37,008 nt of DNA from Palleronia rufa (GTDB lineage Bacteria; Pseudomonadota; Alphaproteobacteria; Rhodobacterales; Rhodobacteraceae), in the NCBI RefSeq assembly GCF_000743715.1, contig NZ_JQEY01000004.1, forward strand, positions 1 to 37,008, given 5' to 3'. The notes below the pieces were generated by a model that made no database searches, had not been told where the DNA came from, and was given only the letters and a program-made list of their open reading frames with translations. Of this stretch, positions 3,648 through 36,483 are shown piece by piece. Every line of letters begins with the position of its first letter. Within the stretch, counting starts at the first letter, position 1. The position numbers were made by a program, and so were the translations under genes.

Positions 3648-3649
3648 CG

Positions 3650-12652: not shown

Positions 12653-12659
12653 GGGCCCC

Positions 12660-13736: not shown

Positions 13737-13755
13737 GCGGAGAGAGGAATACCAC

Positions 13756-14046
13756 ATGACACCACCCCGATCCGATCAGGGTTTCGTGCGCATGCCCGAC
13801 GCCGAGTTCGAGGCCATGCTGGCACGCGCCGCAGAAGAGGGCGCGAAACGCGCGCTCGCCGATGTCGGCCTCGATGGTGAAGAGGCTGCCCTCGACATCC
13901 GCGACCTGCGATCCTTGCTCGACTGCGTGCGGCTGGTGCGGCGCACCGCGATGCAGACCGCCGTCCGCATGATCACCACCGGTGTGATGCTGGCGCTCCT
14001 CGCAGGCATCACGATCAAGCTCAAAATCTTCGGTGGCAGTCCATAG
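13756..14046 (+). CDS. Small membrane protein (DUF6127-like), possible holin
   Basis: This 96-aa protein begins MTPPRSDQGFVRMPDAEFEA. ATG 13756 was chosen because AGAGAGG lies just upstream. It has an acidic, helical N-terminal part (EAMLARAAEEGAKRALADVG) and one hydrophobic segment near the C terminus (MITTGVMLALLAGITIKL). Position between the tail fibre and the endolysin, plus the single membrane segment, make a role in lysis (holin-like) or in linking tail genes to the membrane possible, but the family function is not known. It is the last gene before an intrinsic terminator. Confidence 0.65.
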   Translation: MTPPRSDQGFVRMPDAEFEAMLARAAEEGAKRALADVGLDGEEAALDIRDLRSLLDCVRLVRRTAMQTAVRMITTGVMLALLAGITIKLKIFGGSP

Positions 14047-14079
14047 CCGCTCGCCACCCCAAACTGTCAGTCCAATCGA

Positions 14080-14102
14080 CCCGCCTCGGAGGCGGGTTTT
14101 TT
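14080..14102 (+). terminator. Rho-independent terminator after the tail operon
   Basis: CCCGCCT (14080-14086) pairs with AGGCGGG (14090-14096) around the 3-base loop CGG, followed at once by six T residues. It stands between the small membrane protein gene and the endolysin gene, so it would attenuate late tail transcription into the lysis genes. Confidence 0.9.
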
Positions 14103-14121
14103 CGTTTCTGGAGGATCCCCA

Positions 14122-17995: not shown

Positions 17996-17997
17996 GC

Positions 17998-18498
17998 TCA
18001 GGTGATCCGCAGATGAAAAAGCCCGGCAGGCTTGTTGCCGTTTGCGAGGATGATTTCCTGTGGATACTCGCGTGCTTCGCCCCACAGCAGTCGGCCAAAG
18101 TCCAGCGTTTCCCCTCCATATGGTGCAGAGCATTTCCAGGTGACAGCATCGCTCGCCGTCTGAACCTGCAATCGGCGTTGACCACCGGGGAGCCAGAACA
18201 CCAGTGCGGCATCACCTTCATAGGCATCCTGAAATGACAGGATGACATGCTTGAGCGTGTCTGCGAGCCACTCTTCGGCTTCGGCAGGGGACAGCAGATC
18301 GATGCAAGCGTCCAGACCCGCAACGACCAGTGTGTTCCCAGCATTGCTGGGCAGATCGTCGGGCCAGTTCTTCGACGCGCGGATCATTTCGCGGAGGCTG
18401 AAAACCTCTCCGGCCTTGGTGACCTCGGAGAAGGCATCGTTCTCCCAGATCCAGCTTACGCCGCGCCGTTGCCAAACCGTGTCATGCAGCAGCTTCAT
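17998..18498 (-). CDS. Unrecognised 166-aa protein in the BREX-like operon
   Basis: ATG 18498 lies 2 bases after the methylase stop and the gene ends 2 bases before the helicase ATG, so it is surely part of the operon. The protein begins MKLLHDTVWQRRGVSWIWEN and contains FSLREMIRASKNWPDDLPSN, NTLVVAGLDACIDLL, and a segment DAALVFWLPGGQRRLQVQ that resembles a beta strand of a P-loop fold without a Walker A motif; no GKT/GKS is present. The C-terminal half is rich in aromatic residues (WKCSAPYGGETLDFGRLLWG). I cannot assign a family. By size and position it may occupy the role of small accessory proteins such as BrxF of type 3 BREX, but BrxF has a P-loop and this does not visibly have one. Confidence 0.8.
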   Translation of the reverse strand: MKLLHDTVWQRRGVSWIWENDAFSEVTKAGEVFSLREMIRASKNWPDDLPSNAGNTLVVAGLDACIDLLSPAEAEEWLADTLKHVILSFQDAYEGDAALVFWLPGGQRRLQVQTASDAVTWKCSAPYGGETLDFGRLLWGEAREYPQEIILANGNKPAGLFHLRIT

Positions 18499-21500: not shown

Positions 21501-21755
21501 TATAAGTAAGGAGCGGAAAACGCTTGAAGGTCTCCGTGCCCACCACTTTGACATTTGATATATTGGCTTTGTGGTAACACCAGCATGGGCTTCCATTTTG
21601 GCGATACCATTGATCGGCAAAATGGGGAAATCTACTTCCAGGCAAGTCTTTTCTCGGTCCGGATTGGCAAAATCTACAGTTTCTGAGGATATTGTTCGCC
21701 CTGCTCCGACAGCTCTGGCGATTTCTTGTACGATACGTTCTTTCTTCGTCGCCAT
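18501..21755 (-). CDS. DUF1156-domain adenine-specific DNA methyltransferase (PglXI-like)
   Basis: This 1084-aa protein has an N-terminal DUF1156 region: WWARRPS at 71-77, with the SAM-binding motif IFMGGGTTLVEGSRLG at 124-139 and NDLNP at 145-149. The catalytic motif TDPPFGG has its D at residue 698. The long insert between these motifs holds several cysteine pairs (CQVTGCGHR, CPSCNTEFD, CPSCQASFN, CASCGTQQD) that look like zinc ribbons and could form the target-recognition part. In BREX the methylase marks one strand of a short site and so labels self DNA; DUF1156 members are called PglXI in type 3 BREX. It starts 13 bases after the pglZ-like stop. Base composition drops sharply in the central part (about 19260-20950), suggesting a recombined segment. 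Confidence 0.88.
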   Translation of the reverse strand: MATKKERIVQEIARAVGAGRTISSETVDFANPDREKTCLEVDFPILPINGIAKMEAHAGVTTKPIYQMSKWWARRPSSVFRSLLIAAATKAPDDPSHAAKLVWDKYYGNHQKKGAFNNIKVADIFMGGGTTLVEGSRLGMQMSGNDLNPVAWFVVKQELSDVDLGEVERLLADIEAEVKPQIMPFYYCDGPNGEKGTWTHKSTGEVMGQDFDPLALKPEERKDYDYEGPEIVYTFWAKHGPCQVTGCGHRTPIMTDPAMAVKSISVKRWEHTCPSCNTEFDIEASAARLAPDVPLYVAPDEHPFAVLSEDGRVICPSCQASFNAHIHPKTGLHIEGQRGQVRLGKGKNKAISLTLLVHPDWLKGSGKSAPDGLIYGGSPQDSVEATAKWNDERALNARLLEVRGKLPNTVTCPETGVSFPTGKGSGTVPKRSTFTCASCGTQQDVMKSTRDSGKGGQVAGYAFQGILPIKKDEKLSYERFFAPFGEYSAKQYNCALREWESRKVSDLEPYWPKSEIPYGFMTVIANSDIRKNYGFTHWWTMFNPRQLLVHAQILKAIAKCGDHDWKTREYVLGSFQNYLRNQSMFAFWHKKLGTLAPALSNSNFHPKTNVVETGVFCPVGYGPWSSATKPLFKSLEWKQSPWELARLESDLNLSEGQVGSTEKIPCTDAPTEVKDISCVSSTDLISYQDNSIDLVITDPPFGGLLHYSELSDFFYVWLRLVLKDRYPEILQPELTPKAMEAVANRAREPEDPDAFYQRLLTECWKEAHRILKPGGMLAFTFHHSEDAPWVSVLESLFDAGFYLEATYPIRSDETKGDGEFGSKTIEYDIIHVCRKRIEEPKEVSWGRMRREVLADVRQLQGMLENHARAGLPAADLQVIRRGKALEYFSRHYGKVYVDEGRPISVKDALVGINQLIDEDANKASEPPPVIAEPITRQFLRIFDGKTELARDQMQKLLRGSGIAPDEFVNRGWCSEEKKVFHLADPLAFARDWQGKHRRRLTADLDQALVIIGACFDGSGINASDTLKNENFKPHAALKSLLEWLSKRGQTQSMRNAASRALTIYNNWAASNKDQVRQLSLFQED

Positions 21756-21768: not shown

Positions 21769-22758
21769 TTACTTCGTCAATTCAATAAATGGGCAGAGCA
21801 TCTCCAGCAGGGAGAGGCCGCCGTGTGCCAGTGTCGGGTAGCCGCCCTGGCTGCGCCATTTCCAACGGCCGAGGGCGAGCAGGTGCGGGCCATGCGGGCT
21901 GTTGGCTTGAAGCGCCACGGGGGGAACAAAAGGCCCCGGGTCGTGGTCGCCGGACACAAGCCGACCGCTTTTCAGGGCGCTCTTCAAAAAAGCTGCCTGT
22001 TCGTCAGGAGCATCAAAGAATTCACCGGTCGCGGCGTAGCCGTGGTCAGACGTAATGAGGAGGCGGCGACCCGTCGCCAAACGCTCCAGGAACGCCCAGA
22101 AGTCATCGCTGGTAAGCTGCGCGGAGATATCGTTCGTGAGAACGCTCAGCCCTTGTCCGGCCCCGGCGGTGGCGTGGAGCTTTGTGTCGGGCCATTGGTG
22201 CCAGAAGATCCAGTTGGGCGAAGGATCGATCAGATCGCCGCAATCTTTCCAGGGAAGGTCAATGCATTCGGTTTGTGCAGGCGCGAGCCGATGCAGCATG
22301 CCGCCACCGTTGTTCTGCAGCTGGCTACGACTATTGAAGCCAAGTGCCTTGGCGAACGCGTTCGTCTCACTCGGGATCTCCGCCCCATAGGCCGTAGAGG
22401 CATGCAAGGTGAAGCCACGCTCTTTCGCTCCCTCAATGATCCAAGGCATTTCCCGCAAGCTCAGCCCGTCGAGGATCAAGACTGCTTTCTTGCTGTACGG
22501 CTTGCCCCACCATTCGCTGACCTGATCGGCGTTACGCGGAACCACATCTCCGAACGCTTCCCATAGATCCCATGCGACTGAAGAAAGAAAATGGTCCAGC
22601 TCTCCAATTGAGCGATCGCGACGTGTGACTTCGGCCGATGCATTGTTCACGCTCAAAGGGGCGCAACAAGTCTCCAGAACTAGATCAAACACCGCTCGCC
22701 AAGCTTCTTCATCCGTCGCATTCGTCAGATCGCCAAGGTGCCGGGTGTCGAGCGCCAT
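21769..22758 (-). CDS. PglZ-domain protein, short form (alkaline-phosphatase fold)
   Basis: This 329-aa protein shows the metal-binding pattern of the PglZ / alkaline-phosphatase superfamily: VLILDGLSLREMP (D97), LLITSDHGYAATGEF (D238, H239) and a C-terminal LAHGGLSLLEMLCPFIEL that matches the HGG...E(M/V)L(V/C)P end of PglZ domains. Most BREX PglZ proteins are 600-900 aa, so this is only the catalytic domain with a short N-terminal region. PglZ is essential for BREX in characterised systems and is thought to act with the methylase and ATPase; its substrate is uncertain. The start ATG shares one base with the stop of the upstream ATPase gene (TAATG), indicating translational coupling. Confidence 0.82.
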   Translation of the reverse strand: MALDTRHLGDLTNATDEEAWRAVFDLVLETCCAPLSVNNASAEVTRRDRSIGELDHFLSSVAWDLWEAFGDVVPRNADQVSEWWGKPYSKKAVLILDGLSLREMPWIIEGAKERGFTLHASTAYGAEIPSETNAFAKALGFNSRSQLQNNGGGMLHRLAPAQTECIDLPWKDCGDLIDPSPNWIFWHQWPDTKLHATAGAGQGLSVLTNDISAQLTSDDFWAFLERLATGRRLLITSDHGYAATGEFFDAPDEQAAFLKSALKSGRLVSGDHDPGPFVPPVALQANSPHGPHLLALGRWKWRSQGGYPTLAHGGLSLLEMLCPFIELTK

Positions 22759-25502
22759 TAGCTATCCTCCTTGTCCAACGAAATCTCGAACGTCATGCCA
22801 TCAGGCAGCTTCTTCAGTATCTCTTTAAGCTGCGCGCCAGTTGCAGCCGACACCTTCAGAGTCACTTCCTTAACCGGTGTTGCCGGGCCGATGCCCCAGC
22901 CTTCCATCTTTCCGATTAGGTTGAGCGGCGACGTGGGTGCGCTGAACAAAGGTGTGCGGCCACCGCTCGTCCCGCCGCCGAAAATCCCGCCCGGCGCTGG
23001 CCCTGTGCCCCCCGGGTCGTCGGCTGGTCCTGCCCCAGTAGGGGCATCCGTGGGCGGCTCGCCTCCTGTGCTAGGCCCTCCGAAAAGCCCCCCAGCCGGA
23101 GGGGTGCCAGCGGGTGGCGCTACTGGTGCGGATCCTCCTGTCGAAGGCACCGCAGATGGCTTTAGGAGGAAGACTTCATCCAGTTGACGACCCGTTAATC
23201 CAAGTTTGGAACGCAGTCTTTTCCAAGCTGTATCTTCGTCTTCACCTGCTTGAGCCTGCAGATATTCCATGCTCCGAAGATTGATCGCGACTTTCCCACG
23301 CGCGCAAAGCCGAATGATCCTCTCTTTCATTGCTGTTTCCCCAAGCCAGGGAATGCAGTCTTGTCCAGAAGGACGGGGTTCTTGCAGCTCCTTCAACAGC
23401 TTTCCGACGGAGCTGTTGTTGTTCGCGGCCTCCAAAACTAGATCTTGGAAGTCCTCGGGCACAAAGAGGTCGCTTGTAAGTGAAGCTTCAATAGCATCAG
23501 GGATTTTGGAGCCCTGTTCTTTGAGCGTTTCAATGTGGAAAACACATTGCGACGGATCGGAGAAATTCCACCGGTGCAGGGCCGCAAAGCGATCAAAGCG
23601 TTTCTTGAGAATGTCGCGCAGCTCGCCTTGGTACTTCGTTTGTAGCTTCCGGTATTCAGGGTTCTGTGCCCCCCACTCCTGAGCCTTCATTTCAGCGCGA
23701 GCGAGAATAAGCAGGTCTCTATCATAGAAGGCGTTCGTGGATCCTGAACGTGGCAACAAGAAACGAACCGTATTGCGCCGTTTCTGAAGGTGCTCCTTCA
23801 GCCATTGACCTAGCCGTTCATTTAAACGATCAGGTTCTTCTGGCAAAACTAGGATCGGTAGTCTGTCGTCCCATTTGTCGGGATGCTCGCCTTCGTCCAG
23901 GCCAGTCCATGGATCAGTCAACCAATTCCGCGGAAGTGCGATGACGCGGAAATTCTTTGCGACCTCCTCCGTGCCACCGATAACGTATCGGATCTCTTTC
24001 GCCAGCTGCACCAAGTCGGTGCCATCGGTGAAGAGCTTGTCATTCCTGGCAGATGCCATGACCTTGGCTTGAGGATTCTCCTCTTCCTTGAAGACGAGTC
24101 GCGTTCCATCCTGATGGATGTTGAAACTGTTCTCGATGATCGTCGCCAGTTCCACCTGGAAGGAGTTATCATCGATCTTGTTGGCCTTTGTGATGTCGGC
24201 TTGTAGGACAGCAGGTTCCGCTCCAGCCATATTGCCCACTGCGATTGATCGCAGCCAAAGGGCACCCACGATATCCTCTAAGTGAGGCGCTTTGGTTGTG
24301 TGGTCTGGAACCGCCTCAACAACCGACGTCAAATTTCGACGAGCTTTATCTCGCAGTGCGCGATGCTGCTGATTTGCGACCGAGTCGAGCAAAGCGCCTA
24401 TACCGGTAGCCTCATCGTCCAGTTTGAAATCCGCAGAAGTCAAAACTGGGGTGCTCTCTCCACGACTCTTAAACAAACTTGCCAGAATGCGGATCAAGTC
24501 CCGCGTTTCTTGGGCGTCGGTAGCTACGAGAACCTGATCTTCAAGAAGCTGCAAAAGATGGGGCGCGAATGGCCAAGACTCTCTAAAGTCATGGAGCTTT
24601 CGGTCTTGCTCTGCTGAAGGGACATTGAGCAGTCGAAAGAACTCAGCCACATGGGTTGCTAAAACGCCATCCACTGCAGAGTCGTCAATTTGGAGTCTGT
24701 TTTCAAATAGTCGGTGCAGTAGCATCCTGCGGCGATCATTCTGAATTTTGTCGGGACTACCTCCAGCGCGAAAGTCTACTTGTACCGGATTTACGCGGTG
24801 AATTTGCTGATAAGCATCGCTTGTTCCATTTCGAACAGACACGACAAGGACAAGAAGGTCAGGATGTTCCTTCGCAATTTCAGACAAGATCTGAACAAAG
24901 TTGAACGCCCAATTCTTCCAAGGATACTGCTTAGTGTTGGTGAGCCCATCGAACCAAGTCTGGAATTCATCCAGAAGAAGCATCATCGGGGTGTGACGAA
25001 GGAGCTCTAGAATCAGCTGATCGGAAGGGATGTCCGGCTTAGCCGAACCCATTCCTTCCCATTTACCCTTGATATATGTTCCGTGAGGATGGCGATCAAA
25101 AAGAATGTCCCACAGAAATTTGTAACGCTGGCGATGCAGGCTTTCTCCGATCACCAGCATTTCGTCACGAAGTGGAATTGCCCCTGTTTTGGGATCACCG
25201 AGTTTTCCTGACCAATCTGAAAGCCACGCTTGGGTCGATTTCGGGTCACTAACAGCGTGATATAGCGCCGCCATTAAGTGCGACTTGCCGAGCCCACGCT
25301 CCCCGATCACCACGACGGGACGTCCTTGGCTGGGACCGACGGCCTCAATACCCTTGAGAAGATCCAAAGTTGGATACGTTATTTCCAGAAAATTCTCTGC
25401 CGGCACTTGAGTAGCGCCAGTATTCGACTCGTTTGAGAGTTCGATAGCTGTGCCTTTCAGGCGCCGCCCCAAAAACTCATCCCTTAATTTAAGCCCTAGC
25501 AT
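22758..25502 (-). CDS. Large P-loop ATPase of the BREX-like operon (BrxC/PglY-like, DUF499/DUF6079 type)
   Basis: This 914-aa protein has Walker A GERGLGKS at 67-74, preceded by FLEITYPTLDLLKGI, and Walker B MMLLLDEF at 173-180, the layout of the BrxC/PglY and DUF499 ATPases of phage-defence loci. Residues about 775-855 form a low-complexity linker rich in G, P, T and A with repeated GG(L/I)FGG units, leading to a small C-terminal domain (ATPVKEVTLKVSAATGAQLK). ATG 25502 is preferred to the in-frame GTG at 25532 because GAGGGG precedes it at a good distance and overlaps the stop of the WYL gene, with a 10-base gap between the two genes. In BREX this ATPase is a core part of the defence complex. 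The exact Pfam family cannot be settled without a profile search. Confidence 0.82.
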   Translation of the reverse strand: MLGLKLRDEFLGRRLKGTAIELSNESNTGATQVPAENFLEITYPTLDLLKGIEAVGPSQGRPVVVIGERGLGKSHLMAALYHAVSDPKSTQAWLSDWSGKLGDPKTGAIPLRDEMLVIGESLHRQRYKFLWDILFDRHPHGTYIKGKWEGMGSAKPDIPSDQLILELLRHTPMMLLLDEFQTWFDGLTNTKQYPWKNWAFNFVQILSEIAKEHPDLLVLVVSVRNGTSDAYQQIHRVNPVQVDFRAGGSPDKIQNDRRRMLLHRLFENRLQIDDSAVDGVLATHVAEFFRLLNVPSAEQDRKLHDFRESWPFAPHLLQLLEDQVLVATDAQETRDLIRILASLFKSRGESTPVLTSADFKLDDEATGIGALLDSVANQQHRALRDKARRNLTSVVEAVPDHTTKAPHLEDIVGALWLRSIAVGNMAGAEPAVLQADITKANKIDDNSFQVELATIIENSFNIHQDGTRLVFKEEENPQAKVMASARNDKLFTDGTDLVQLAKEIRYVIGGTEEVAKNFRVIALPRNWLTDPWTGLDEGEHPDKWDDRLPILVLPEEPDRLNERLGQWLKEHLQKRRNTVRFLLPRSGSTNAFYDRDLLILARAEMKAQEWGAQNPEYRKLQTKYQGELRDILKKRFDRFAALHRWNFSDPSQCVFHIETLKEQGSKIPDAIEASLTSDLFVPEDFQDLVLEAANNNSSVGKLLKELQEPRPSGQDCIPWLGETAMKERIIRLCARGKVAINLRSMEYLQAQAGEDEDTAWKRLRSKLGLTGRQLDEVFLLKPSAVPSTGGSAPVAPPAGTPPAGGLFGGPSTGGEPPTDAPTGAGPADDPGGTGPAPGGIFGGGTSGGRTPLFSAPTSPLNLIGKMEGWGIGPATPVKEVTLKVSAATGAQLKEILKKLPDGMTFEISLDKEDS

Positions 25503-25512
25503 CGAGGTCCCC

Positions 25513-26382
25513 TCAAACTCCGGTCTCAGCACGGTTCAATTCCGTGTGAGGTGTTAATAAAACAATCTGCTGATCCTGCGGTTTCCTAGCACCTGGATCG
25601 GTATCGAGCCCCAGACGTTTCAGAGCATAGTAGAGGAGAGCGCGTCGAACTTTGATTTTCGCCCTGCCACCGCGCATTCCATAGTCGAGCGCGATCACAT
25701 TCTTCTGGTTTTCAGAGAGTTCGGGGTGGGGAGCAATCTCAAGCGTGACGTGCTCTTGCCAATCGGCATCGGCCGCATCCGTAGTTCCGCTGGCCTGTAC
25801 ACCACGTGTCTGGAGGATGCGCGAAAGCAGGAAGTCCTTGAAAACTTCGTCGGTTTTACAGAACGCCCGGGTGTGCCACCGAAAGCCATCGAACCCAATG
25901 GCGTGGGGCGCGATCCACCGCCAGCTCGGCTCCGGGCGCGAGAGGGACTGATACTTCACCTCGATCGCTTCAGAGCGACGGATGGCACTGACAACGGATC
26001 GCAGGATGACAGGGTTCACACCACGGGCCGGAGTGGGCGTGGCGTCATAGGCTGGTAGTTCGGCAATCCACGCGTCGTCGCTGTCCATGAGGCCATCAGC
26101 CAAAGAGCGAAGCTGTGCGAGGTAGCGGCTAGCATCGGGTTTCAGGAACTGTGCAGCATATTCGGGGCCTCGGACATACGTCCGCGCACTCTTGTCGTAG
26201 ACCATGTTGTCCGGCGCTATACCGATATAGCGGTTCAGATCGGCGGACGCTTGGTTCACCGATAGTCCAAACTGCTCCATCAAGTCGCTTCGGTTCACAT
26301 GTCCCTCCCAAAACAATCGGAACTCGATGAACTCGAGGCGCTGCGCGACCCCCCAACGAAGCTCCGACTTCCCGTTTTCCAC
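25513..26382 (-). CDS. WYL-domain transcriptional regulator (BrxR/CapW-like)
   Basis: This 289-aa protein has an N-terminal winged helix-turn-helix (residues about 8-60, LEFIEFRLFWEGHVNRSDLM then FGLSVNQASADLNRYIG), a WYL domain (about 118-200, with AIEVKYQSL, IAPHAIGFDGFRWHTRAFC and FKDFLLSRI) and a C-terminal WCX-like part. Length and layout match BrxR and CapW, which repress phage-defence operons by binding an inverted repeat in their own promoter. The start is GTG 26382 with GGGAG 8 bases upstream. The whole upstream region, including that ribosome binding site, is the 142-bp repeat that recurs in front of mcrB. It is the first gene of the BREX-like operon, with a 10-base gap to the ATPase gene. 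Autoregulation is inferred. Confidence 0.87.
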   Translation of the reverse strand: MENGKSELRWGVAQRLEFIEFRLFWEGHVNRSDLMEQFGLSVNQASADLNRYIGIAPDNMVYDKSARTYVRGPEYAAQFLKPDASRYLAQLRSLADGLMDSDDAWIAELPAYDATPTPARGVNPVILRSVVSAIRRSEAIEVKYQSLSRPEPSWRWIAPHAIGFDGFRWHTRAFCKTDEVFKDFLLSRILQTRGVQASGTTDAADADWQEHVTLEIAPHPELSENQKNVIALDYGMRGGRAKIKVRRALLYYALKRLGLDTDPGARKPQDQQIVLLTPHTELNRAETGV

Positions 26383-26383
26383 T

Positions 26384-26525
26384 TCGCACTCCCGACTCAG
26401 CGCGCATGATTAATGTACGCGCCCATTTTTTGTGCTCACTGCACGCTAGCGGGGAGTCGTTTAGGGTTCAATCGAAATCCTGCGATTTTTCGGGGGTTTG
26501 CTCGAACGAATAGGACCGGACCGCT
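26384..26525 (-). repeat. 142-bp regulatory direct repeat, copy A (promoter region of the BREX-like operon)
   Basis: This segment matches 30267-30408 without gaps, with 10 mismatches by my count (about 93% identity). Weaker similarity continues for about 25 bases beyond 26525. It ends one base before the GTG of the WYL gene, so it carries that gene's promoter and ribosome binding site. On the minus strand a possible -10 box TACATT lies within the larger palindrome; no strong -35 box is visible. A TTGAAC hexamer further up with TAGCGT 17 bases on is an alternative, weak promoter. Confidence 0.9.
26400..26444. promoter_or_regulatory. Two palindromes, candidate operator for the WYL regulator (copy A)
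   Basis: The first palindrome (26400-26422) has arms GCGCG and CGCGC separated by 13 bases (CATGATTAATGTA). The second (26432-26444) is GTGC-TCACT-GCAC. They lie 38-62 bases before the regulator's start codon and the first covers the candidate -10 box, the place for a repressor site. Both are kept in copy B with changes only in their centres. Confidence 0.6.
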
Positions 26526-26662
26526 AGTTGTGAGCCAGGCATGCCGGGCAACACTCTTTGCACCTAAGAATCAACCGAAACTGGCGGCTTTCGTGCCATT
26601 CAGCCAATCCGACTGCCTCGAGCAGTTCCTGGATCGCGCTGAGCTTGCCTGCCTTTAGTTCT
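26526..26662. other. Intergenic region between mcrC and the repeat
   Basis: No confident gene. On the minus strand, in a frame different from mcrC, about 45 codons are open (QRYEELKAGKLSAIQELLEAVG and onwards), which looks protein-like but has no start codon of its own; it may be a remnant of an older gene end or of a longer mcrC frame. No intrinsic terminator was found after mcrC. Confidence 0.4.
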
Positions 26663-27955
26663 TCATATCGTTGCGTGAATTGCCGTCTGTGATGAGCGTT
26701 GTTTCCAGTGGGGCTCGATCGCGATCATTCCATCAATACCGGCCGGCATCCCATTGCCGAAAGCGAGCTCTCGAACATCTACCGCGATGACCTCAAGCTT
26801 TGGACGCTCTTCAGTCATGAGCACGAACTCGCTAATCTTTCCCGGCGGACAGTCCCCAGAAGCGGGGTAGACGAGCGCCAATTGTTTGCACCGGTAGCGA
26901 GCGGCGTAGGCGTTCATCTGATACGCGTCGCCGCTCGAGACGCCGGAGTTCGCGTTGCCGAGATCTAGGCGCTTCCATTTGGCATCGAGAATGGCGACGG
27001 TCTCAACTTCGTTCTGAATGGTGATGTCGGGGCGCAGTTGGAAGCCCGCCGTCGCGAGGTTCTTCACAGGGCTCTGCAGCCCCACCGAAAGGCGACCACC
27101 ATACTTCGTCTGACAGGCATGCCGGATGCGCAGTCCGATAACCGTCTCGAAGAGCTTCTCCATATTGAACAGCAGCGCTGAACCAGCAGCGTCCCCGGTG
27201 CGAACATCCGGATAGAGGCCTGACAGTAGCCAGCGGGCCCGCGCAAATACTGGTTCCCAGTGCCGGATGGTGCGGTCAAGGCGGAGACCGTCGATGTCGC
27301 GAGCTCTGACCCTAATATCGCTAACCTCGTCAAAGCGATGCAGGAAAGCCGTCACCATCGCGCGGGTCCGTGGGCTCAACGCGAATCCGAGAAGGATCCG
27401 GAGTGCGCCCTTAAGCGCTTGATTGTATCGGTTGTCGATGCTGCGCTCGTCGAAACGACAGAGTAGATGAGAACGGTCGAAGGCGTTCGTGCGCAGGTGC
27501 TCGGTCAGCTCGAGCCGTCCGCGGATGGCATTGAGGTTCTCCGTCTTCTCCGAGTACCGGGCAATGGCCCCGCCTCGGAGCGCGGATTTCACCTGGCTGC
27601 AGAAATCCTCGATGAAGATGTCCAGGAGGTGGCTGTGCTGTTGCCCGAGGCCGGCCTCGCCTACGCGCTTCGATCCGAGCTCTCCGGCACGAGCAAGCAT
27701 GGCCACTAGAAGGCCCCGCATGTCTTCGCTGCTATCGCTGCCATGGTCGATCTTTGGAAGTATCTCGATCGCCAGCTGCTCGGTTTGCAGGACTCCGCAG
27801 AACTGCCCGAACTTCAATGACCGATGGCCCCAAGTGAGGACCCCGGATGGCAGACGTCCGGCGAGTTTCGCGATCCCTTCTGCCTCAAGCTCGCTGATCT
27901 CGCCGTCCGGGCCGATGCTGACGCCCTCCCTCTCTCGGAAGGTCAGGCATCTCAT
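26663..27955 (-). CDS. mcrC: McrC-like restriction endonuclease subunit
   Basis: This 430-aa protein has the McrC layout: an N-terminal beta-rich region (residues 1-100, with FGQFCGVLQTEQLAIEILPKID), a middle helical region (ENLNAIRGRLELTEHLR, a conserved McrC motif) and a C-terminal PD-(D/E)XK nuclease core with LRPDITI then AILDAKWKRLD, where D, D and the K of DAKWK are the expected catalytic residues. McrC stimulates the GTPase of McrB and cuts DNA. The ATG overlaps the mcrB stop as ATGA, the usual coupling for this pair. Confidence 0.92.
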   Translation of the reverse strand: MRCLTFREREGVSIGPDGEISELEAEGIAKLAGRLPSGVLTWGHRSLKFGQFCGVLQTEQLAIEILPKIDHGSDSSEDMRGLLVAMLARAGELGSKRVGEAGLGQQHSHLLDIFIEDFCSQVKSALRGGAIARYSEKTENLNAIRGRLELTEHLRTNAFDRSHLLCRFDERSIDNRYNQALKGALRILLGFALSPRTRAMVTAFLHRFDEVSDIRVRARDIDGLRLDRTIRHWEPVFARARWLLSGLYPDVRTGDAAGSALLFNMEKLFETVIGLRIRHACQTKYGGRLSVGLQSPVKNLATAGFQLRPDITIQNEVETVAILDAKWKRLDLGNANSGVSSGDAYQMNAYAARYRCKQLALVYPASGDCPPGKISEFVLMTEERPKLEVIAVDVRELAFGNGMPAGIDGMIAIEPHWKQRSSQTAIHATI

Positions 27956-30207
27956 TCCGGTGGCTCGTAGATCTTCCGGATGGCGTCCGGGGTGATGTCG
28001 TCTTCCCGAATGATCTCGAACGCCTCGCCGTCCCCAATTTCGGTCGGGTCCGCCTTTGGAAAGAGCTCGGCAGCACTCTGTGTGCGCGCCCGGACCAATT
28101 GCAGCTCTTCCTCCACTGCCTGGTCGGCGAGGACGTAACGGATCTGACGCCAGTCGTCGTAGAACGCCTCTTGCAGGAACGGCAGTATCTCCCGCGCAAA
28201 TACACGGCGCAGCTCGTCGAAGGACTTCACGTGGTAAAAGTAGCTGTGGCCGAGGCTCTGGTCGCGATGCAGCAGGCGGGACAGGCGGGCATTCATGGCT
28301 TGCAGAAGCTGACGCAGGTCGATCGCATTGCCCTCACCGTCATCGATCGATTCAAGCAGTTCCGGCTTCGGCGTGAGTTCCTCGAACCGGAACCGGCGCC
28401 GTAAGGCGCTGTCGAGCAGAGCGATCGAGCGGTCCGCGGTGTTCATAGTGCCGATCACGTCGACATTCGCGGGCACCCCAAAACGCTCGCCGGAGTAGGG
28501 GAGCGTCACTTCCAAGCCCTTGCAGCTCGCCGCGCGGTTGCCCGACGCATCAATGCGGATCCGCTTGTCCACCTCGAGAAGCGTGATGAGCTCGCCGAAG
28601 ACCTTGGCGACGTTTCCGCGATTGATCTCGTCGATGAAGAGGGCGAAGCGCTTGTCCGGCGCGCGCCGGGCCTGATCGCAAAGCCGCTTCAACACCCCCG
28701 GCCGCACCTCATAGGTGACAGCGCCGTTCTCCGTGACAGGGCGAATGCCCTCGACGAAGTCCTCGTATGCGTAGCTCTGATGGAACGTCACGAACTCGAA
28801 GCGATCACCGGCCTCGTCCTGGTATCGCGGCAGGTAATCGTTCTTGAGGCGGTAGGTCTTCCCGGTGCCGGGCGGGCCGTAGAGAATGAGGTTCAGGGGC
28901 GGCGCGAGTTTCTTTGGAGATGCATCCACAGACCCGGCTTCGTCTTCCGGCGCAGTGGCACCCGATACGATTGGTGGCAGCGCCTTCCATAGGCGCTCGA
29001 GGATGCGGGCAGCCTTTGCCCTGATCTCGACTCCGGAAGACTGCGGGTTCCACTCCTGGCCGGGTTCGCGACTTTGCAGCTCTTCAAGAGGGACGATTTC
29101 GTCCGTCGTTGCATCGCGGACGGAGTCGAATGCGACGTCAACGAAACGCGTCGTCTCGCCGGCGTCGGCGCGGGCCTGTTCCCAGTGCTCCGCTTCGTAG
29201 GGCGCGCGCGTGATCTTTCCGACGGCCACGACGCCTTTCGGAGGATTGCCGGTGCGGATCAGAAAGACGCGGTCACCCTCGCGTGGCTTGCTTGAGCTGC
29301 AGCGCCATCGGTTGTCGGCCTTCTCCCCACTGATCGTCGTGGCGCGGTCGGCCGCGAGTGTGTCCCAGGTCCATCTGGACGGGTTCCAGCTGAGAAGCCA
29401 GTTCTTCGTCTGGTTCTTCCACTGGGACTCGAACTCTTCCTGGTAGAAATCGATGTCCGAGCCATGCTCTTCTTCCAGCCTGCGGCGCAGCTCGAGCAGA
29501 GCGCGGTCGATCTCGACAGTGCTCCACTTCTTGATCTCCTTCTCCGTCGTGTCTCCGAAGCCGGCGAGTATCAGGCGCTTGTCGCCCTCGGAACTGATCC
29601 TCTCGAAGGTATCAGGGAACAGCAGGTGTGGCAGGATGTGGATCAGCTGTCGGTGCCGCGCCTCTGGAAGTCTGCTCAACCAGCCAGAGAATGCCCACGG
29701 ATCCGAAGCGATCTGCTCGCGCTCGGAGCCATCGCGAGCCTTGAAATCTTGCAGAGCACCGATGAGAAAAACCAGCTCGCGCCAGCGGTGTGTGTTGTAG
29801 GCAGTCCCGGCGGAGCCGATGCCTTCGAGAACAGCGTCTGCGAGGAGTGGCTGGGTCGGGTTCAGGTCCTCTCCTGACCAAGACCAGATCTCCTGCACGT
29901 TCTCGCGCTTCTTTACTGCGCCGACGTTCGACGGGAAGAGCAGCGTAAGCCACAGGCTCTCCGCCATCAGCCTGCGGCAATTTGGGGAGCCCTCCGAAAG
30001 CTGCATCTTCAATTTCGAGAGAAAGTCACCTTCACCTGCGTCAAGGTTTTTTACGAAATGCTGATCAAGCTCGCCGAGCAGATTGGTCGTCCAGAGGTTT
30101 TCACCTTTCGACAATACCGACCCGTCTGCGAGAAAGCAGTTGTCTTTCCACTCCTGAGCCGCGTCATAGATTGGGTCGACATAATGGTTGGGATTGTACT
30201 TCGACAA
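27952..30207 (-). CDS. mcrB: McrB-like AAA+ motor protein with an EVE domain
   Basis: This 751-aa protein has an N-terminal region of unknown function (1-260), a segment that reads as an EVE domain (about 265-405: SWNPSRWTWDTLAADRA, GDRVFLIRTGNPPKGVVAVGKI, HWEQARADAG, FVDVAFDSV), and a McrB-type AAA+ domain with Walker A GPPGTGKT (444-451), Walker B FALFIDEINRG and the McrB signature GTMNTADRSIALLDSALRRR. McrB recognises modified DNA and, with GTP, drives the McrC nuclease. EVE domains belong to the PUA-like fold and bind modified cytosines, so the target is probably DNA with modified bases, an inference. The start is TTG 30207 because an in-frame stop (TAA) lies 9 codons upstream with no ATG or GTG between; AGAGGA lies just upstream. 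Confidence 0.9.
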   Translation of the reverse strand: MSKYNPNHYVDPIYDAAQEWKDNCFLADGSVLSKGENLWTTNLLGELDQHFVKNLDAGEGDFLSKLKMQLSEGSPNCRRLMAESLWLTLLFPSNVGAVKKRENVQEIWSWSGEDLNPTQPLLADAVLEGIGSAGTAYNTHRWRELVFLIGALQDFKARDGSEREQIASDPWAFSGWLSRLPEARHRQLIHILPHLLFPDTFERISSEGDKRLILAGFGDTTEKEIKKWSTVEIDRALLELRRRLEEEHGSDIDFYQEEFESQWKNQTKNWLLSWNPSRWTWDTLAADRATTISGEKADNRWRCSSSKPREGDRVFLIRTGNPPKGVVAVGKITRAPYEAEHWEQARADAGETTRFVDVAFDSVRDATTDEIVPLEELQSREPGQEWNPQSSGVEIRAKAARILERLWKALPPIVSGATAPEDEAGSVDASPKKLAPPLNLILYGPPGTGKTYRLKNDYLPRYQDEAGDRFEFVTFHQSYAYEDFVEGIRPVTENGAVTYEVRPGVLKRLCDQARRAPDKRFALFIDEINRGNVAKVFGELITLLEVDKRIRIDASGNRAASCKGLEVTLPYSGERFGVPANVDVIGTMNTADRSIALLDSALRRRFRFEELTPKPELLESIDDGEGNAIDLRQLLQAMNARLSRLLHRDQSLGHSYFYHVKSFDELRRVFAREILPFLQEAFYDDWRQIRYVLADQAVEEELQLVRARTQSAAELFPKADPTEIGDGEAFEIIREDDITPDAIRKIYEPPE

Positions 30208-30266
30208 ACTCGACGATTCCTCTTCCGATTAATGAGCTCCGGCTATTTCGTGTTTCCCGCCAAGGC
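30208..30266 (-). other. mcrB leader between repeat B and the TTG start
   Basis: About 59 bases on the minus strand separate the repeat from mcrB. They carry the mcrB ribosome binding region (GGAAGAGGAA) but nothing like the sequence next to the WYL gene, so similarity between the two promoters stops exactly at the ribosome-binding segment of copy A. Confidence 0.5.
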
Positions 30267-30408
30267 TCGCACTCCCGACTCGGCGCGCATGATTTATGTA
30301 CGCGCCCATTTTTTGTGCTGACTGCACGCTAACGGGGAGTCGTGTCGGGTTCAATCGAAATCCTACGATGTTTCGGGGGTTTGCTCGAATGAATAGGACC
30401 GGCCCGCT
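30267..30408 (-). repeat. 142-bp regulatory direct repeat, copy B (promoter region of mcrBC)
   Basis: This is the second copy of the repeat at 26384-26525, in the same orientation relative to the downstream gene. Ten mismatches are scattered and there are no gaps. The two copies are 3883 bp apart and bracket the mcrBC operon. Confidence 0.9.
30283..30327. promoter_or_regulatory. Two palindromes, candidate operator (copy B)
   Basis: GCGCG-N13-CGCGC at 30283-30305 and GTGC-TGACT-GCAC at 30315-30327, at the same spacing as in copy A. The arms are identical to copy A and the differences fall in the central spacers, which is what binding by a dimeric repressor would preserve. Confidence 0.6.
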
Positions 30409-30417
30409 TGCGGCAAA

Positions 30418-30455
30418 GCAGGCGTGCCGAGCCCGCGCTTCCTCGGCACGCCTGC
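30418..30455. repeat. Perfect 14-bp inverted repeat (hairpin)
   Basis: GCAGGCGTGCCGAG (30418-30431) pairs perfectly with 30442-30455 across a 10-base loop. There is no T-run on either side, so it is not a standard intrinsic terminator. It lies between mcrB's promoter and the end of the ParB/RepB-like gene, about 180 bases past that gene's stop. It could end transcription in a Rho-assisted way or be a protein or recombination site. The rest of 30456-30632 shows no gene. Confidence 0.6.
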
Positions 30456-30632
30456 GATTATCGCAACCGCTTTTGCGGCCGCGCGGCCGGCGAAAACTCG
30501 AGCCGGCCTGGTGGGCTCCATGCGGGTTCGCCGCCATCCCCACCGCCGCGCTCGATCCGGCCCACAGTCCGGCGTCTCCCGCGGTCCCCGCGCTTATCGG
30601 GTCCGGGTCCCCATCAAGCCTGCAGTGACGGG

Positions 30633-31529
30633 TTACTCGGCCTCCGCCGGCACCACAGACTCCATCTCGGCGACGGTCTGAAACTCGGACAGGAACTCAG
30701 GGCGCGTCTGCATCAGATACCGCACCACGCGCGCGTTCCCGAGGAGCTTGCCGACGTAGCCACGGAGCACGGTCAGCTGGAGGTGGTCCTGGCCGTAGGT
30801 GTCCTGGATCTGTGTGATCCCTTCCTGAAGCCGGGCAAGCTCCTTTTCCATTCGAGCGACCGCCTGAGGCGTCACGCCCTTGATGCGTTTGGGCTTGTTC
30901 GCCTCGACCAGCTGCGTCTGCGGTGTTGCGGCGAGGATCGCCGAGATGTAGGCGACGGAGTAGTTGTTGGCGTTCACCATGAGCTCGGCGGCTTCGATCT
31001 GGCGCAAGGGGATCATCTTGCGCAGCGTGGTGAACACGGCCGCAGTACAGGCCTTGTCCTTTAGAATCGCCACGGCTTCCGGGCAAATGCCGTCGAGCAG
31101 CTTGACCTTGCGCTGGATGCTGCGCGGGTTGAGGTCCAGCGCGGCCGCGATCTTCTCCTCCGAGACACCGCGCTCGATCGCTTTCAGGATCATCCGGTGC
31201 TCCTGAATGGGCGCGATACGGCTGATGCGCTTGTTGTAGGTGAAGGCCTCGTCGTCCGTCGACACGAGGCATTCGACCTGTTCCCGACCCAGATCCTTGA
31301 GGACTTCGATCCGGACATGTCCGTCGAGCAGCAGCCAGCTGCCGCTGGCATCCCCGTTTCGCGCGACCACCGGCGGCTCGACCAAACCGATCTCGCGGAT
31401 CGATGCTGTGATCTGGGTGTATTTCCGACTGGACTTGATGGACTTGCTTAGCACCCTGACAGGCAGGATGTCCGCGACCGGGATCGTGACGCAATCGTTC
31501 TCGAAGCCGAGTTGAACCTTCTTGGTCAT
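30633..31529 (-). CDS. ParB/RepB-like protein (second of a pair)
   Basis: This 298-aa protein has a ParB N-terminal-type domain (VTIPVADILPVRVL, then IREIGLVEPPVVA and LLLDGHVRIEVLKDLG, where GHVRIE matches the GxxR box) and a helix-turn-helix with KIAAALDLNPRSIQRKVKLL. The C-terminal part resembles the RepB plasmid partition C-terminal domain. ParB-fold proteins bind specific DNA and often CTP. The gene follows a related protein with an ATGA overlap and stands in a cassette headed by a serine recombinase, so a role in recombination control or in stable inheritance of the mobile element is more likely than chromosome partition, an inference. No ParA partner is present. Confidence 0.78.
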   Translation of the reverse strand: MTKKVQLGFENDCVTIPVADILPVRVLSKSIKSSRKYTQITASIREIGLVEPPVVARNGDASGSWLLLDGHVRIEVLKDLGREQVECLVSTDDEAFTYNKRISRIAPIQEHRMILKAIERGVSEEKIAAALDLNPRSIQRKVKLLDGICPEAVAILKDKACTAAVFTTLRKMIPLRQIEAAELMVNANNYSVAYISAILAATPQTQLVEANKPKRIKGVTPQAVARMEKELARLQEGITQIQDTYGQDHLQLTVLRGYVGKLLGNARVVRYLMQTRPEFLSEFQTVAEMESVVPAEAE

Positions 31530-32440
31530 TGCGCTGCCCTCTCGGCGAGGGAGTCCTGCAGGTAGCTGGGCATGGTTTCCAGACCTTCCGCGCGCAGCAG
31601 CGTCACGAAATGGTCGTCCTCGAGGAGGGTCCGGAATGCCTGGCAGATGAACAGCAGCCGCCCCTGCGTCAGTTCCGCTTTCTTGATCAAGAGCTTCTGG
31701 CGGTCCGCCTCTTTTTGGTAGGCACGCACCAACGCCTCGCTCGTCAGAGGTCGCCGGTTTCGGCCGTCGCGGCCGTATTGCTTGGGATGGATCTTCTTTC
31801 CACGCGCCTCGCGCTGTTCGATCAGGCGCCGGGCCGCCGCGAGTTTTTTTCCGCGCAGTTTCTTCTGCGTGTAGGCATCCATCAGCGCACGCTGCGCGCC
31901 TTCGGCATCGGTCTTCGATATGTCGATGGCGAGGTTGAGCGGCAGCAGACCCGTCTCGACGGCGGTGACGAGCCGCTCTTCGCCGCGCTCCAGGAGACCA
32001 GCAATCATGCCGACATAGTCCGGTGAGACGCCGATCTTGTCGCCGATTTGCCGGTCGTTATAGCCCCGTTCGCGGAGCGTGCCGATTTCCCGCATCAGAT
32101 CGATCGGACGATGCTGGCGACGCGCGCAGTTCTCGACGAGGCTCATCACCAGGCAGTCGGACTCATTGGCATCGATGACAATGGCGGGGATGGCTTTCTG
32201 CTTCAGTTGAATGAAGGCCTCGAGCCGCCCTTGGCCGCAGACGAGGTCATATTCCTGTGGATCTGTGTCGGTGCGGCGGGTGACGGTGATTGGGCGCTTC
32301 AAACCGATCTTGGCGATGTTCTCCACCATGTCCGCAAACGTCCTGGGGTTTCGGACCCGCGGATTGAGAACGCGAATGCGGTCGGTCGGGACCAGGGTGA
32401 CTTCCGTCTGGTGAGTTTCTTCCGCGCTTTTGGCCATCAT
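31526..32440 (-). CDS. ParB/RepB-like protein (first of a pair)
   Basis: This 304-aa protein has the ParB N-terminal pattern: VTLVPTDRIRVLNPRVRNP, IAKIGLKRPITVTRR, DLVCGQGRLEAFIQL (GQGRLEA box) and LVENCARRQHRPIDL, followed by a helix-turn-helix GYNDRQIGDKIGVSPDYVGM. The C-terminal region is lysine- and arginine-rich (LRGKKLAAARRLIEQREARG). ATG 32440 overlaps the recombinase stop and has GGAGGT just upstream; a second ATG follows at once. The protein is related to, but clearly different from, its downstream neighbour. With that neighbour and the recombinase it makes a three-gene operon with overlapping starts and stops, suggesting that they work together. Confidence 0.8.
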   Translation of the reverse strand: MMAKSAEETHQTEVTLVPTDRIRVLNPRVRNPRTFADMVENIAKIGLKRPITVTRRTDTDPQEYDLVCGQGRLEAFIQLKQKAIPAIVIDANESDCLVMSLVENCARRQHRPIDLMREIGTLRERGYNDRQIGDKIGVSPDYVGMIAGLLERGEERLVTAVETGLLPLNLAIDISKTDAEGAQRALMDAYTQKKLRGKKLAAARRLIEQREARGKKIHPKQYGRDGRNRRPLTSEALVRAYQKEADRQKLLIKKAELTQGRLLFICQAFRTLLEDDHFVTLLRAEGLETMPSYLQDSLAERAAQ

Positions 32441-34011
32441 GCCACCTCCGTCACCTTCGCCCGCCCGGCGAGGGCGTAGAAATCTTCAAGTGTTTCAGTT
32501 CGATAGGCATCGAGCCACAGGCCGTTCTGCTCGGCCATCTTCAGCCGCGCGTCGGTCATGTCGATGCTGGGTAGAAGGTAGAAATCGCGCGGCGCGTCGT
32601 TGGTCTCGTTCATCCGCACAGCAATCGTGATGTCCGGAACGAGGCCGGTGTCGAGACGGATGTGCCAGCGCAAGGATCCAGCTGCCGTCGCCTGGCAGCG
32701 GGCCAGAACGACCGACACTGTGAATTCATCATTCACGCGCAGCAGCTGCGTGTCGGGGGCCTGCACCACGCGACCTCCCTGGGCGGCCACGCCCTCGATG
32801 ATCTCCTCAACGACCTGGGGGTGGGCAGCGCGCAGCGCCTTGTTGATCTCGATGTAGCGGTAGTCCCGCTCCGGCTCATAGCCGATGAGGCGATAGGCGC
32901 GCAGCAGGCTGCCAAACCGGCTGCGGTAAGCACTGGACGAGGGCAGATCGTTTTCTTCGTCGATGATCAGGCCGGACAGCGTGCCCTGCCGTTTCAGGAT
33001 CGCCCGCAGGGCATCGAGCAGCTCCTCGTCCGAGAAATGGCGGCTGCGCGCATCCACGATTTCCCGCGCGCGCAAGAACAGCGCATTGTCGACGATGGCC
33101 GGATAGGCGCCCTCGGCCCGGATCCACATGTCCCGTGGATTCACGATACGGCGCTGCTTCAGCTTGAACGATACCTTGTTGAAGACGTTGTTCCCGATGT
33201 ATTTTTCGTTGGTCAGAACCTGATGGACCGTCGCCCGGGTCCACGGTCGGTCGAGATCGGTGCGGTGCCCTTCGCCGTTCAAAACCTCCGCGATCTCGCG
33301 CTCGGACCGCCCCTCATTCACGAACATCTCATACATGCGCTGGACGACCCGCTGTTCCTCCTCGGGGCCGGGGACGAGGATCACGCGGTCGGTCTGCAGG
33401 CTCTTCTGCTCGCCGCGGGACAGTTCGCCCTTGGGGTTTCCATGCTCATCGATCAATACGCGCCGGAGCCCGTATCCGGCCGCGCCGCCTTGGCGATATC
33501 CAAGCTCTACCAGGCGGCATTGCCCCGCAAAAACCTTCACCGAAAGCTCACGGCTGTATTCGCCGGCCATGACGCGCTTGACGGTCTTCAGAAGGTTAGA
33601 GCCGATGCTGCCATCGTTCTCGAACTGTTCACCGCAGTAGTGCACACGGATTCCGGCGCGGGAACAGACGTGCTCATGGTATGCGCCCTCATCGGCGTCC
33701 TGAAATCGACCCCAGCGGCTGACGTCATAGACGAGGATCGCCTTGAAGTCAGCGTGGCCGGATTGGACCTCGGCCATCAGGTTCTGCAGCGCCTCGCGGC
33801 CGTCGAGCCGCAATCCCGACCTGCCTGAGTCCTCAAACGTATGCAGAATGGTCAGGCCACGAGCCTCGGCATAGCTGCGAATGACATCGAGCTGGTTCTC
33901 GGTGGAGTACTTTTGGTGATCGGTCGACATCCGCACATAAGCGACGGCTGGCACATCCTTCTCAGGGTGCACCTCGTGCTTATCGGAATGGGTCGCCCAA
34001 CGACCGCTCAC
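32437..34011 (-). CDS. Large serine recombinase
   Basis: This 524-aa protein has an N-terminal resolvase domain (residues about 20-165) with the catalytic serine S29 in AYVRMSTDHQ, then FEDSGRSGLRLDGREAL and LVYDVSRWGRFQD, and a recombinase domain (about 190-310) with YGLRRVLIDEHG and ATVHQVLTNEKYIGNNVFN. The usual C-terminal zinc ribbon is not visible (no CxxC pair); instead residues about 330-524 form a region I do not recognise. Large serine recombinases integrate and excise elements between short att sites. GTG 34011 was chosen because AGGAG lies 8 bases before it; the frame begins MSGRWATHSD. Upstream a divergent HTH gene starts at 34106. Confidence 0.9.
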   Translation of the reverse strand: MSGRWATHSDKHEVHPEKDVPAVAYVRMSTDHQKYSTENQLDVIRSYAEARGLTILHTFEDSGRSGLRLDGREALQNLMAEVQSGHADFKAILVYDVSRWGRFQDADEGAYHEHVCSRAGIRVHYCGEQFENDGSIGSNLLKTVKRVMAGEYSRELSVKVFAGQCRLVELGYRQGGAAGYGLRRVLIDEHGNPKGELSRGEQKSLQTDRVILVPGPEEEQRVVQRMYEMFVNEGRSEREIAEVLNGEGHRTDLDRPWTRATVHQVLTNEKYIGNNVFNKVSFKLKQRRIVNPRDMWIRAEGAYPAIVDNALFLRAREIVDARSRHFSDEELLDALRAILKRQGTLSGLIIDEENDLPSSSAYRSRFGSLLRAYRLIGYEPERDYRYIEINKALRAAHPQVVEEIIEGVAAQGGRVVQAPDTQLLRVNDEFTVSVVLARCQATAAGSLRWHIRLDTGLVPDITIAVRMNETNDAPRDFYLLPSIDMTDARLKMAEQNGLWLDAYRTETLEDFYALAGRAKVTEVA

Positions 34012-34896: not shown

Positions 34897-36483
34897 TTAG
34901 GGCAAGTAATCGAATGCATCCGCGCTTTCATACAGAGCCTTGATGGTTGTCGCGGCAGAGACCGACGCGCGCGTCGCGGCTTCCTTTAGGTCCAAAACAC
35001 GGAACTTGTCGCCGATCTTCGCAACTGCCTCGATCCGACGATACTGGTCGCCGAAGCGTTCTGCGTACTGCGCCAGCCCCTTGAGCTTCGGCATCGCGTC
35101 GCCGAACTGAATGCCGTGCGGATCGACGATATCGGCGGCGACGGTCCCATCGTCCTGCTGAACGAAAAAAACGAAGTCTGGCCTGACGATCCTTGGTTTG
35201 CCCCCATCCTCGTAAATGATGCCAAGCGAGTCCTGGCTGGCGCGCGACGGGTTCCGGTACCACGCGACGGCTCCCGCCCGCGCGAGTTCGGATTTCACGA
35301 CTTCACCTTCCCAGGAATTGAAGTCCTCGGGGAACATCCCATGCTCATCGCACAGCATGTGCCGCTCGAACGATGGCAGCGGGGTCTCTGAGCCGTTCGC
35401 CTCGCGGATCGTCGTCGGTTGCATCCAAGACGTCGGTCGAGCCAGGTCCACATCCATGGGGCTCGCGCTCATCTCACGGATCTGGCGATACACGTCCTGA
35501 CGCTCGTCGGAGAGGTTCTTGATGTCGACCCGGAAGCGAGTGAGCCATTGGTTCGCGAGTTTCTCGGCCTCAGTCTCAAGTGTCTCTCGGATGCCGGGAA
35601 CCAATCCCAGAGCGCCAATCGTGACGTGTGCATCGATGATAGCGGCCTCCATGTCGTCCGCATCGCCTTCGCTCCGCGCCAGGTAGTCGCTGTACGACGT
35701 CGCAAGATCCGGACTGATCGCGCGGCCCGCCCTGCGATATGCGTCTTCGATCACGGCGTAGTCCGCTTCCTCGAGGAAGTCGTCGAACGACATGCCGCCG
35801 CCTTTCAGGTCGGCCTTCAGGCTCTTGCCTTCGACTGTCAGGACCGATTTGCGGGCAGTCTCGATTTCCGCCTTGTAGCGCGCTCTGGCGCCATCGAGCA
35901 CCTTGTGCATTTCCGCATGAGCAGCCTTGCCAGCGTCCTCGAGCAGGCCATCCACGGCCAGCTCGTGCGCCAGCGAGGTCAGTCTCTTGACGGGACGGGC
36001 ATGCCGCTTCGGCAGGGATTGGGATGGCAGCGAGAGCAGCTTGTCCCAAACCGCCTCCGGGATCGCAGAATTGGGCTTCAGCTCGACGGGGTTGATCAGC
36101 ACGCGGCGGCCCGGCAGGTCGTCGCCGCCGTCCCCACCGGACATCAGCGCCTTGGCGACGTCCTTGACCGAGGCTTCGTCGAAGAACGGTAGCAGGCAAT
36201 CGACCGAGTTCAGTCGTTCATTGCCCGGGATCCGCCGCGCCAATGGGGTGCGTACCATGCGCCCCAGCAGCTGCGTGATGTGCGTCTTGTCCCGAGCGGG
36301 CCGGAACGACACCATGACTTCGGCGCGCGGACAGTCCCACCCTGTGCTGATGGCGTCCTTCGCGATCAGGATCCGGACCCACGTCGATTCCTGAACACGT
36401 TCGGGCGAGATGTAGGGCACGGTATGGCGGCCGAAGGTCTGGGTGGAGTGTTCCCCGAACACATGCGCCACCGCATCCTCGGG
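34897..36483 (-). pseudogene. Type III restriction-like / DEAD-DEAH helicase, C-terminal half only
   Basis: An open frame of about 525 codons runs from the IS end at about 36483 down to TAA at 34897. It contains the C-terminal RecA-like half of an SF2 helicase (ILIAKDAISTGWDCPRAEVM, then THITQLLGRMVRTPLARR as motif VI) and a long C-terminal region with RPDFVFFVQQ, TVAADIVDPHG and MPKLKGLAQYAERFG, which resembles the end of type III restriction (Res) helicases and may be a degenerate PD-(D/E)XK-type nuclease. Motifs I and II (Walker A and DEAD/DEAH) are missing because the gene is interrupted by the second IS. A GTG at 36471 could start a fragment, but that would lack ATP binding. The missing half and any partner methylase may lie beyond the window. 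Confidence 0.78.

Follow-up and report, generated by a model that had tools for sequence, protein, structure and literature searches.

Regulators of the CapW/BrxR family have been reported to act as repressors until single-stranded DNA (ssDNA) binds to them (PMC13373217). That a BrxR regulator can have a second, putative box within one island is already known from plasmid pEFER: the binding box lies immediately downstream of the predicted promoter, and a second putative box, R-BOX2, lies upstream of PbrxA (PMC9122601). Here, we analysed a 37,008-nucleotide stretch of Palleronia rufa DNA (contig NZ_JQEY01000004.1; hereafter the window), in which a putative 142-bp promoter/operator of a WYL-domain regulator of this family occurs twice, ahead of the regulator gene itself (copy A) and ahead of the restriction genes mcrBC (copy B). 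The pEFER island resembles this locus in having a same-family WYL repressor, a box just past the promoter and a second putative box. It differs in that its two boxes belong to brxR/brxA, good alignment to R-BOX1 being confined to the IR2 half of R-BOX2, whereas in the window the whole promoter/operator heads a separate restriction operon. The pEFER BREX system with the type IV enzyme BrxU (PMC8565348) likewise places modification-dependent defence together with a type IV enzyme on a single BrxR island, but mcrBC in the window has its own promoter copy.

The closest solved relative of the regulator, CapW of CBASS (PMC9122588; PDB 7tb6), has the same DNA-contacting residues and a palindromic operator at its promoter; its palindromes, however, overlap the -10 element of one CBASS locus, whereas those of the window follow the -10 element at a distance of 7 bp and precede two operons. 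Coordination of neighbouring systems has been discussed for other regulators. Of 443 CapK/CapS gene pairs, 88 have a predicted restriction–modification (R–M) system directly upstream, and a coordination with the immune operon that follows has been proposed; this regulator is unrelated, and the text available to us describes no duplicated operator (PMC13373217). RptR, one small repressor for a composite R–M and DarTG2 island (PMC12255303), is comparable in scope but is a different repressor, whose palindromic site spans 6 bp and which acts at one promoter with three direct repeats. In the accessible text of the open-licence literature, we found no case described in which an entire WYL promoter/operator precedes a second, separate defence operon. 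The coordination of several defence systems within one island is an open question, and the locus offers a clean natural test of it, with one repressor, two near-identical operators and two separate systems, and with relatives that provide contrasts in the form of a single operator, a WYL stub or mcrBC outside the control.

On the comparisons presented below, the WYL protein probably represses both mcrBC, through copy B, and the BREX/Hma-like operon that its gene heads, through copy A, with mcrBC having landed behind an existing switch. Copy A (26384–26525) and copy B (30267–30408) align without gaps and are identical at 132 of 142 positions, with 10 differences. Both are on the minus strand and have the same orientation to the downstream gene. 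Copy A is separated by 1 base from the GTG start of the WYL gene (26382) and copy B by 59 bases from the TTG start of mcrB (30207), the WYL start codon being gone from copy B. The first-pass annotation had reported this repeat, its abutting of the WYL start and its position before mcrB, and realignment reproduced all three. A BLAST search of the genome (3,849,771 bases, 33 contigs) returned these two copies as the sole occurrences; a plasmid collection queried with copy A gave no match, and an Rfam scan of 26300–30700 gave nothing at E ≤ 0.1.

The WYL gene (25513–26382, minus) encodes a 289-aa protein with a Pfam WYL match (4.2e-10). Against the Protein Data Bank it matches CapW 7tb6 over residues 3–275 (E 3.1e-65) and, among others, BrxR 7t8k (5.3e-46) and 7qfz (3.3e-31), and is thus a near full-length homologue of CapW/BrxR with the winged helix-turn-helix, WYL and WCX parts. 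Mutations of R32 or of S42/Q45/S47 in CapW abolish DNA binding (PMC9122588), and the aligned residues of the window protein (Sm CapW numbering) are all identical. The palindromic site at or just after the regulator's own -10 element, characteristic of the family, is present as two inverted repeats, IR1 and IR2, in 19 upstream regions. The protein is a CapW/BrxR-family repressor by homology, and its repression of genes in the window is predicted.

To describe the element, the upstream regions of 23 WYL relatives were aligned with copies A and B. The motifs and the profile were derived from 19 WYL-proximal regions, 18 from relatives plus copy A; copy B was excluded, as were L055, L057, L058, L059 and L060, in which the region was incomplete for the motif or the motif was absent. 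The 19 regions have in common a -35-like TTG, a -10 element beginning with TA, the two inverted repeats and then a ribosome-binding site. The consensus of IR1 is GCCCA-N5-TGGGC, with 82 of 95 arm cells paired, and that of IR2 is GCGCAY-N7-RTGCGC, with 93 of 114 paired; both are the best among ~1,000 placements per arm length, for which the mean is near 0.25. One arm position covaries, as T-A in 7 regions and C-G in 5. In copy A, these elements correspond to a -35 TTGAAC (26471–26466), a 17-bp spacer, a -10 TAGCGT (26448–26443), IR1 (26435–26421), IR2 (26420–26402) and a Shine–Dalgarno sequence GGGAG, and in copy B to a -35 (30354–30349), a -10 (30331–30326), IR1 (30318–30304) and IR2 (30303–30285). 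The palindromes begin 7 bp past the -10 element in both copies; the -35 and -10 assignments were derived from conservation. This comparison identifies the repeat as the autoregulatory promoter/operator of the CapW/BrxR-family repressor, as the first-pass annotation had proposed, a reading that is borne out both by the motifs in the 19 regions and by the association with WYL genes across genomes. In copy B (30240–30270), the former WYL ribosome-binding site faces a possible 6-codon frame (TTG...TAG) ahead of the mcrB leader.

The profile, built without copy B, nevertheless detects it at 73.6 bits, compared with 79.5 bits for copy A. A model search of 198 genomes of the family gave 24 matches in 21 genomes, 20 of them ahead of a WYL gene; the four others are copy B, two matches (G195, G153) that by eye are truncated operator remnants without an intact WYL gene, and a weak match in G120 (E 0.0096), which we attribute to chance. 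In a genome-wide check of 47 operator-bearing genomes, which overlap with the 198 (G205 and G070, for example, are the same genome, as are G211 and G191), 59 of 60 operator matches precede a WYL gene. This check used 48 of 69 loci found by scanning a genome collection with one degenerate pattern, 11 others being set aside as their genomes were already covered and a further ten of the remaining 58 being left out by a limit of 50. A WYL match lies 7–26 bp downstream in 66 of these 69 stretches. Five of the 66 matches are shorter than 120 aa, at stretch ends in L201, L253 and L260 and in perhaps broken genes in L206 and L226; the three stretches without a counted WYL match are L215, where a WYL start breaks off, L242, where the stretch ends and which is taken to be the G023 locus with its known WYL gene, and L254. 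Six IMG/VR stretches match, and the operator adjoins a WYL gene in five of them but not in L309.

According to PADLOC searches with selected proteins, the operator-bearing WYL relatives head type III R–M (L047), BREX (L046, L049, L041), Druantia-like (L044, L008), Mza-like (L050, L052) and Hma-like (L043) systems, while the more distant relatives in which no operator was detected are followed by genes of Hma/Tmt-like (L060), BREX (L063) and type I R–M (L062, L068) systems. The search of other genomes and the listing of neighbours, which the first-pass annotation had suggested, thus place the element mostly ahead of WYL genes, with varied defence operons behind those examined; the outcome that would have spoken against its reading, a repeat mainly beside non-defence genes, did not occur.

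Three relatives (G070, G183, G165) carry the order recombinase–RepBa–RepBb–spacer–operator–WYL without mcrBC. Copy B occupies the position of this single WYL operator, between RepBb and the next gene. The single operator of G070 is identical to copy B at 141 of 142 positions and differs from copy A at nine; copy B differs from the single copies of G200 and G201 at seven positions each and from copy A at 10. In situ duplication as the main origin was rejected, as copy B is nearer to the single copies of other genomes than to copy A. An uncultured Sulfitobacter (G198) carries the order recombinase–RepBa–RepBb–operator–first 16 WYL codons–mcrBC–operator–WYL–another operon; in this genome (L296, G198:C39, about 9501–9642, minus), the 16 WYL codons enter a short frame that stops immediately ahead of mcrB. 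The idea of an operator copied to mcrBC in situ, as put forward in the first-pass annotation, is not supported: copy B sits at the ancestral WYL promoter place, and G198 retains the WYL stub. The mcrB leader of the window (30208–30266, minus) is related to the portion of the G198 leader that follows the 16-codon stub, and the window therefore probably lost its own stub.

Elsewhere, mcrBC is free of the operator. The operator before mcrB is absent from the stretches examined of G023, G067, G255, G269, G300 and a Sinorhizobium plasmid; in another genome with close mcrBC, G338, the contig breaks off there. In Marivita lacus (G199), mcrBC lies ~1 kb past RepBb with other upstream DNA, the operator is found only at the WYL gene, and this mcrBC is, judging from its surroundings, probably a separate insertion. 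With copy B in the WYL-promoter place of the relatives, a stub in G198 and operator-free mcrBC elsewhere, the comparison points to mcrBC having been placed behind an existing operator, and mcrBC probably landed behind a pre-existing WYL switch. The arrangement of the IMG/VR contig L309 (4401–6625), in which the operator and a few WYL codons are followed ~370 bp on by an AAA_5 ATPase gene, suggests that the same WYL junction has been reused. It is very improbable that mcrBC instead arrived as a ready-made operator–mcrBC cassette. The window and G198 do have a common mcrB leader and a common spacer between mcrC and the operator, and such a unit may have moved between backbones. Yet copy B is syntenic with the WYL promoter of the relatives beside RepBb, remnants of WYL coding sequence still separate operator and mcrB in G198, and the operator is missing from five mcrBC relatives in the family.

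We then considered whether copy B is still a working operator. The ten differences between copies A and B all lie outside the 34 of 142 columns that make up the promoter/operator motifs (0/10, P 0.058). The mcrBC-proximal operators of the window and G198 are identical at 133 of 142 positions, again with no difference in motif columns (0/9, P 0.078), while the DNA identity of the genes behind them is 1866/2253 for mcrB and 1144/1290 for mcrC. Comparison of G070 with the window gives 1 difference in the 142 positions of copy B against 12 in the 227 of the spacer and hairpin next to it (Fisher P 0.02, among several comparisons made). This pattern favours copy B being a working operator. It also bears on the reading of copy B as a passive relic, a promoter left behind when mcrBC insertion destroyed its WYL gene; mcrBC may then be transcribed from it, with control by WYL having no selected role. 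The WYL stub in G198, the missing WYL start after copy B, the operator-free mcrBC of G199 and the operator remnants at broken or lost WYL genes in L215, G153 and G195 are what such a relic would leave. However, copy B is undecayed next to a more diverged spacer and hairpin, the motif positions are retained ahead of mcrBC in two genomes, and two of the remnants (G153, G195) are truncated; we regard the relic as unlikely.

Several observations weigh against control of both operons by the WYL protein. The inverted repeats of copies A and B have imperfect arms, with one mismatch in IR1 and two in IR2, and a scan of 26300–30700 with a generic sigma-70 consensus found no promoter site. Over 33 loci, the profile detects operators where the WYL identity is ~72% or higher, and at 13 loci with a WYL identity of ≤67% (L057–L069) it detects none, so the operator accompanies the closer WYL relatives. 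The order operator–mcrBC–operator–WYL is known from two genomes only, and co-regulation is not obligatory, since the mcrBC of G199, at the same site, has no operator ahead of it. The avoidance of motif columns (P 0.058 for copies A and B, 0.078 for copy B and G198) is weak alone. Nor is motif conservation absolute, as the WYL-proximal operator of G198 has four changes in the IR2 arms, and the high identity of the operators could also stem from recent recombination.

Alternatively, the repeat might chiefly be a homology block or recombinase site for the exchange of defence cassettes beside the serine recombinase–RepB module, with regulation incidental. On the minus strand, the island reads serine recombinase, RepBa, RepBb, spacer, copy B, mcrB, mcrC, copy A, WYL, DUF499 ATPase, 329-aa protein, methylase and SNF2 helicase. 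The large serine recombinase (32437–34011, minus; best NCBIfam match CcrB, far below cut-off) is followed by the RepB/ParB-like protein a (31526–32440, minus) and the RepB-like protein b (30633–31529, minus). Next in this backbone is a conserved non-coding spacer with a terminal hairpin (30409–30632, minus). In 17 other genomes (198 searched, E 3.2e-20 or better), the part of the spacer that matches is 80–95% identical; the spacer is in some cases more conserved than the adjoining RepB protein and has no Rfam match; we consider it a candidate recombination or RepB-binding site.

Beyond copy A, homology extends upstream: BLAST aligns 26384–26549 with the upstream region of G070 (166 bp, 89%), and its extra 24 bp (26526–26549, minus) match the 3' arm of the terminator-like hairpin located upstream of copy B. 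Two backbone types, I and II, are 75–83% identical in their recombinase and RepB proteins, and both carry mcrBC insertions. The second operator of G198 is window-like in its 5' part (50–51/54, compared with 31/61 to G183) and slightly nearer to G183 in its 3' part (80/88, compared with 74–77/88 to the window copies). The presence of mcrBC on both backbone types and the mosaic look of this operator suggest that cassettes move by recombination in conserved stretches. These features and the extension of the duplicated stretch into the terminator arm fit a mainly recombinational role, but the core conserved over 19 loci consists of promoter and palindromes, the operator core is also found at loci without a RepB or recombinase match in the examined stretch, and at 14 further loci the post-RepB spacer continues into other sequence without the operator. 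We therefore find such a role, which is compatible with regulation by the WYL protein, rather unlikely as the chief explanation of the repeat.

Dual control by the WYL protein, the reading that we prefer, could have arisen and operate as follows. The ancestral island would have had the order recombinase–RepBa–RepBb–operator–WYL–defence operon. The mcrBC pair would have been inserted just behind the operator, presumably by recombination, replacing the adjacent WYL gene body, while a second operator–WYL unit with its own defence operon persisted downstream. Loss of the last WYL codons in the window would then have left copy B directly heading mcrBC. A WYL dimer would bind just downstream of the -10 element at both copy B and copy A and, on the model of BrxR, which has its box directly past the promoter, block both promoters. 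It would hold both operons down until released by a ligand, which in studied relatives is ssDNA, and McrBC cleavage might itself supply this ssDNA signal. A more tentative extension is that the junction of WYL promoter and start codon is a landing place that captures new defence genes under a damage-sensing repressor, combined with a feed-forward loop in which McrBC cleavage of modified phage DNA yields ssDNA, WYL is released from both operators, and mcrBC and the BREX/Hma-like operon rise together. The locus suggests a route of island growth in which newly arrived systems come under control by settling downstream of a switch already in place.

The two systems under this predicted control differ in how firmly they can be assigned. 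The products of mcrB (27952–30207, minus; EVE and AAA_5 domains, TTG start) and mcrC (26663–27955, minus) match AAA_5 (2.3e-17) and PRK11331 (8.8e-41, below the curated cut-off of that model) and PF10117 (6.2e-62), respectively, providing the AAA motor and the nuclease subunit of a McrBC type IV system. Behind the WYL gene, the operon encodes a 924-aa DUF499 ATPase (22758–25532, minus; DUF499 3.3e-6), the 329-aa protein (21769–22758, minus), an N6/N4 DNA methylase of the HmaB/PglXI/DUF1156-like type (18501–21755, minus) and an SNF2 helicase of the BrxH/HmaA/DrmD-like type (15227–18133, minus). The helicase matches BrxHI best (3.7e-100) and then HmaA (2e-94), and the best match of the methylase is HmaB (1.6e-37). 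The DUF499 ATPase matches HmaC weakly (0.0019) and gave no match to BrxC, a BrxC/PglY ATPase being expected of BREX. The 329-aa protein may have a minimal PglZ-like domain, its match to PglZ in PADLOC being weak (0.023; 3.6e-4 for the protein of a relative); it has no Pfam match, and a profile search of the Protein Data Bank gave nothing credible. It has motifs that resemble those of PglZ/alkaline phosphatase. A fold predicted from three sequences had a pLDDT of 35 and was not used. The description of the operon as BREX-like in the first-pass annotation is roughly right with respect to the BrxHI-type helicase but loose given the HmaB-type methylase, the DUF499 ATPase and the weak PglZ match.

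Some other WYL islands (L050, L055, L309) have a DUF6880 gene upstream in place of the recombinase–RepB trio, together with what looks like the end of a tyrosine integrase. In the window, a 524-aa open reading frame with a weak, sub-threshold helicase match lies upstream of the recombinase (34897–36471), and on the other side the defence island is adjoined by plus-strand genes (1–14796) that match gene-transfer-agent and phage tail families.
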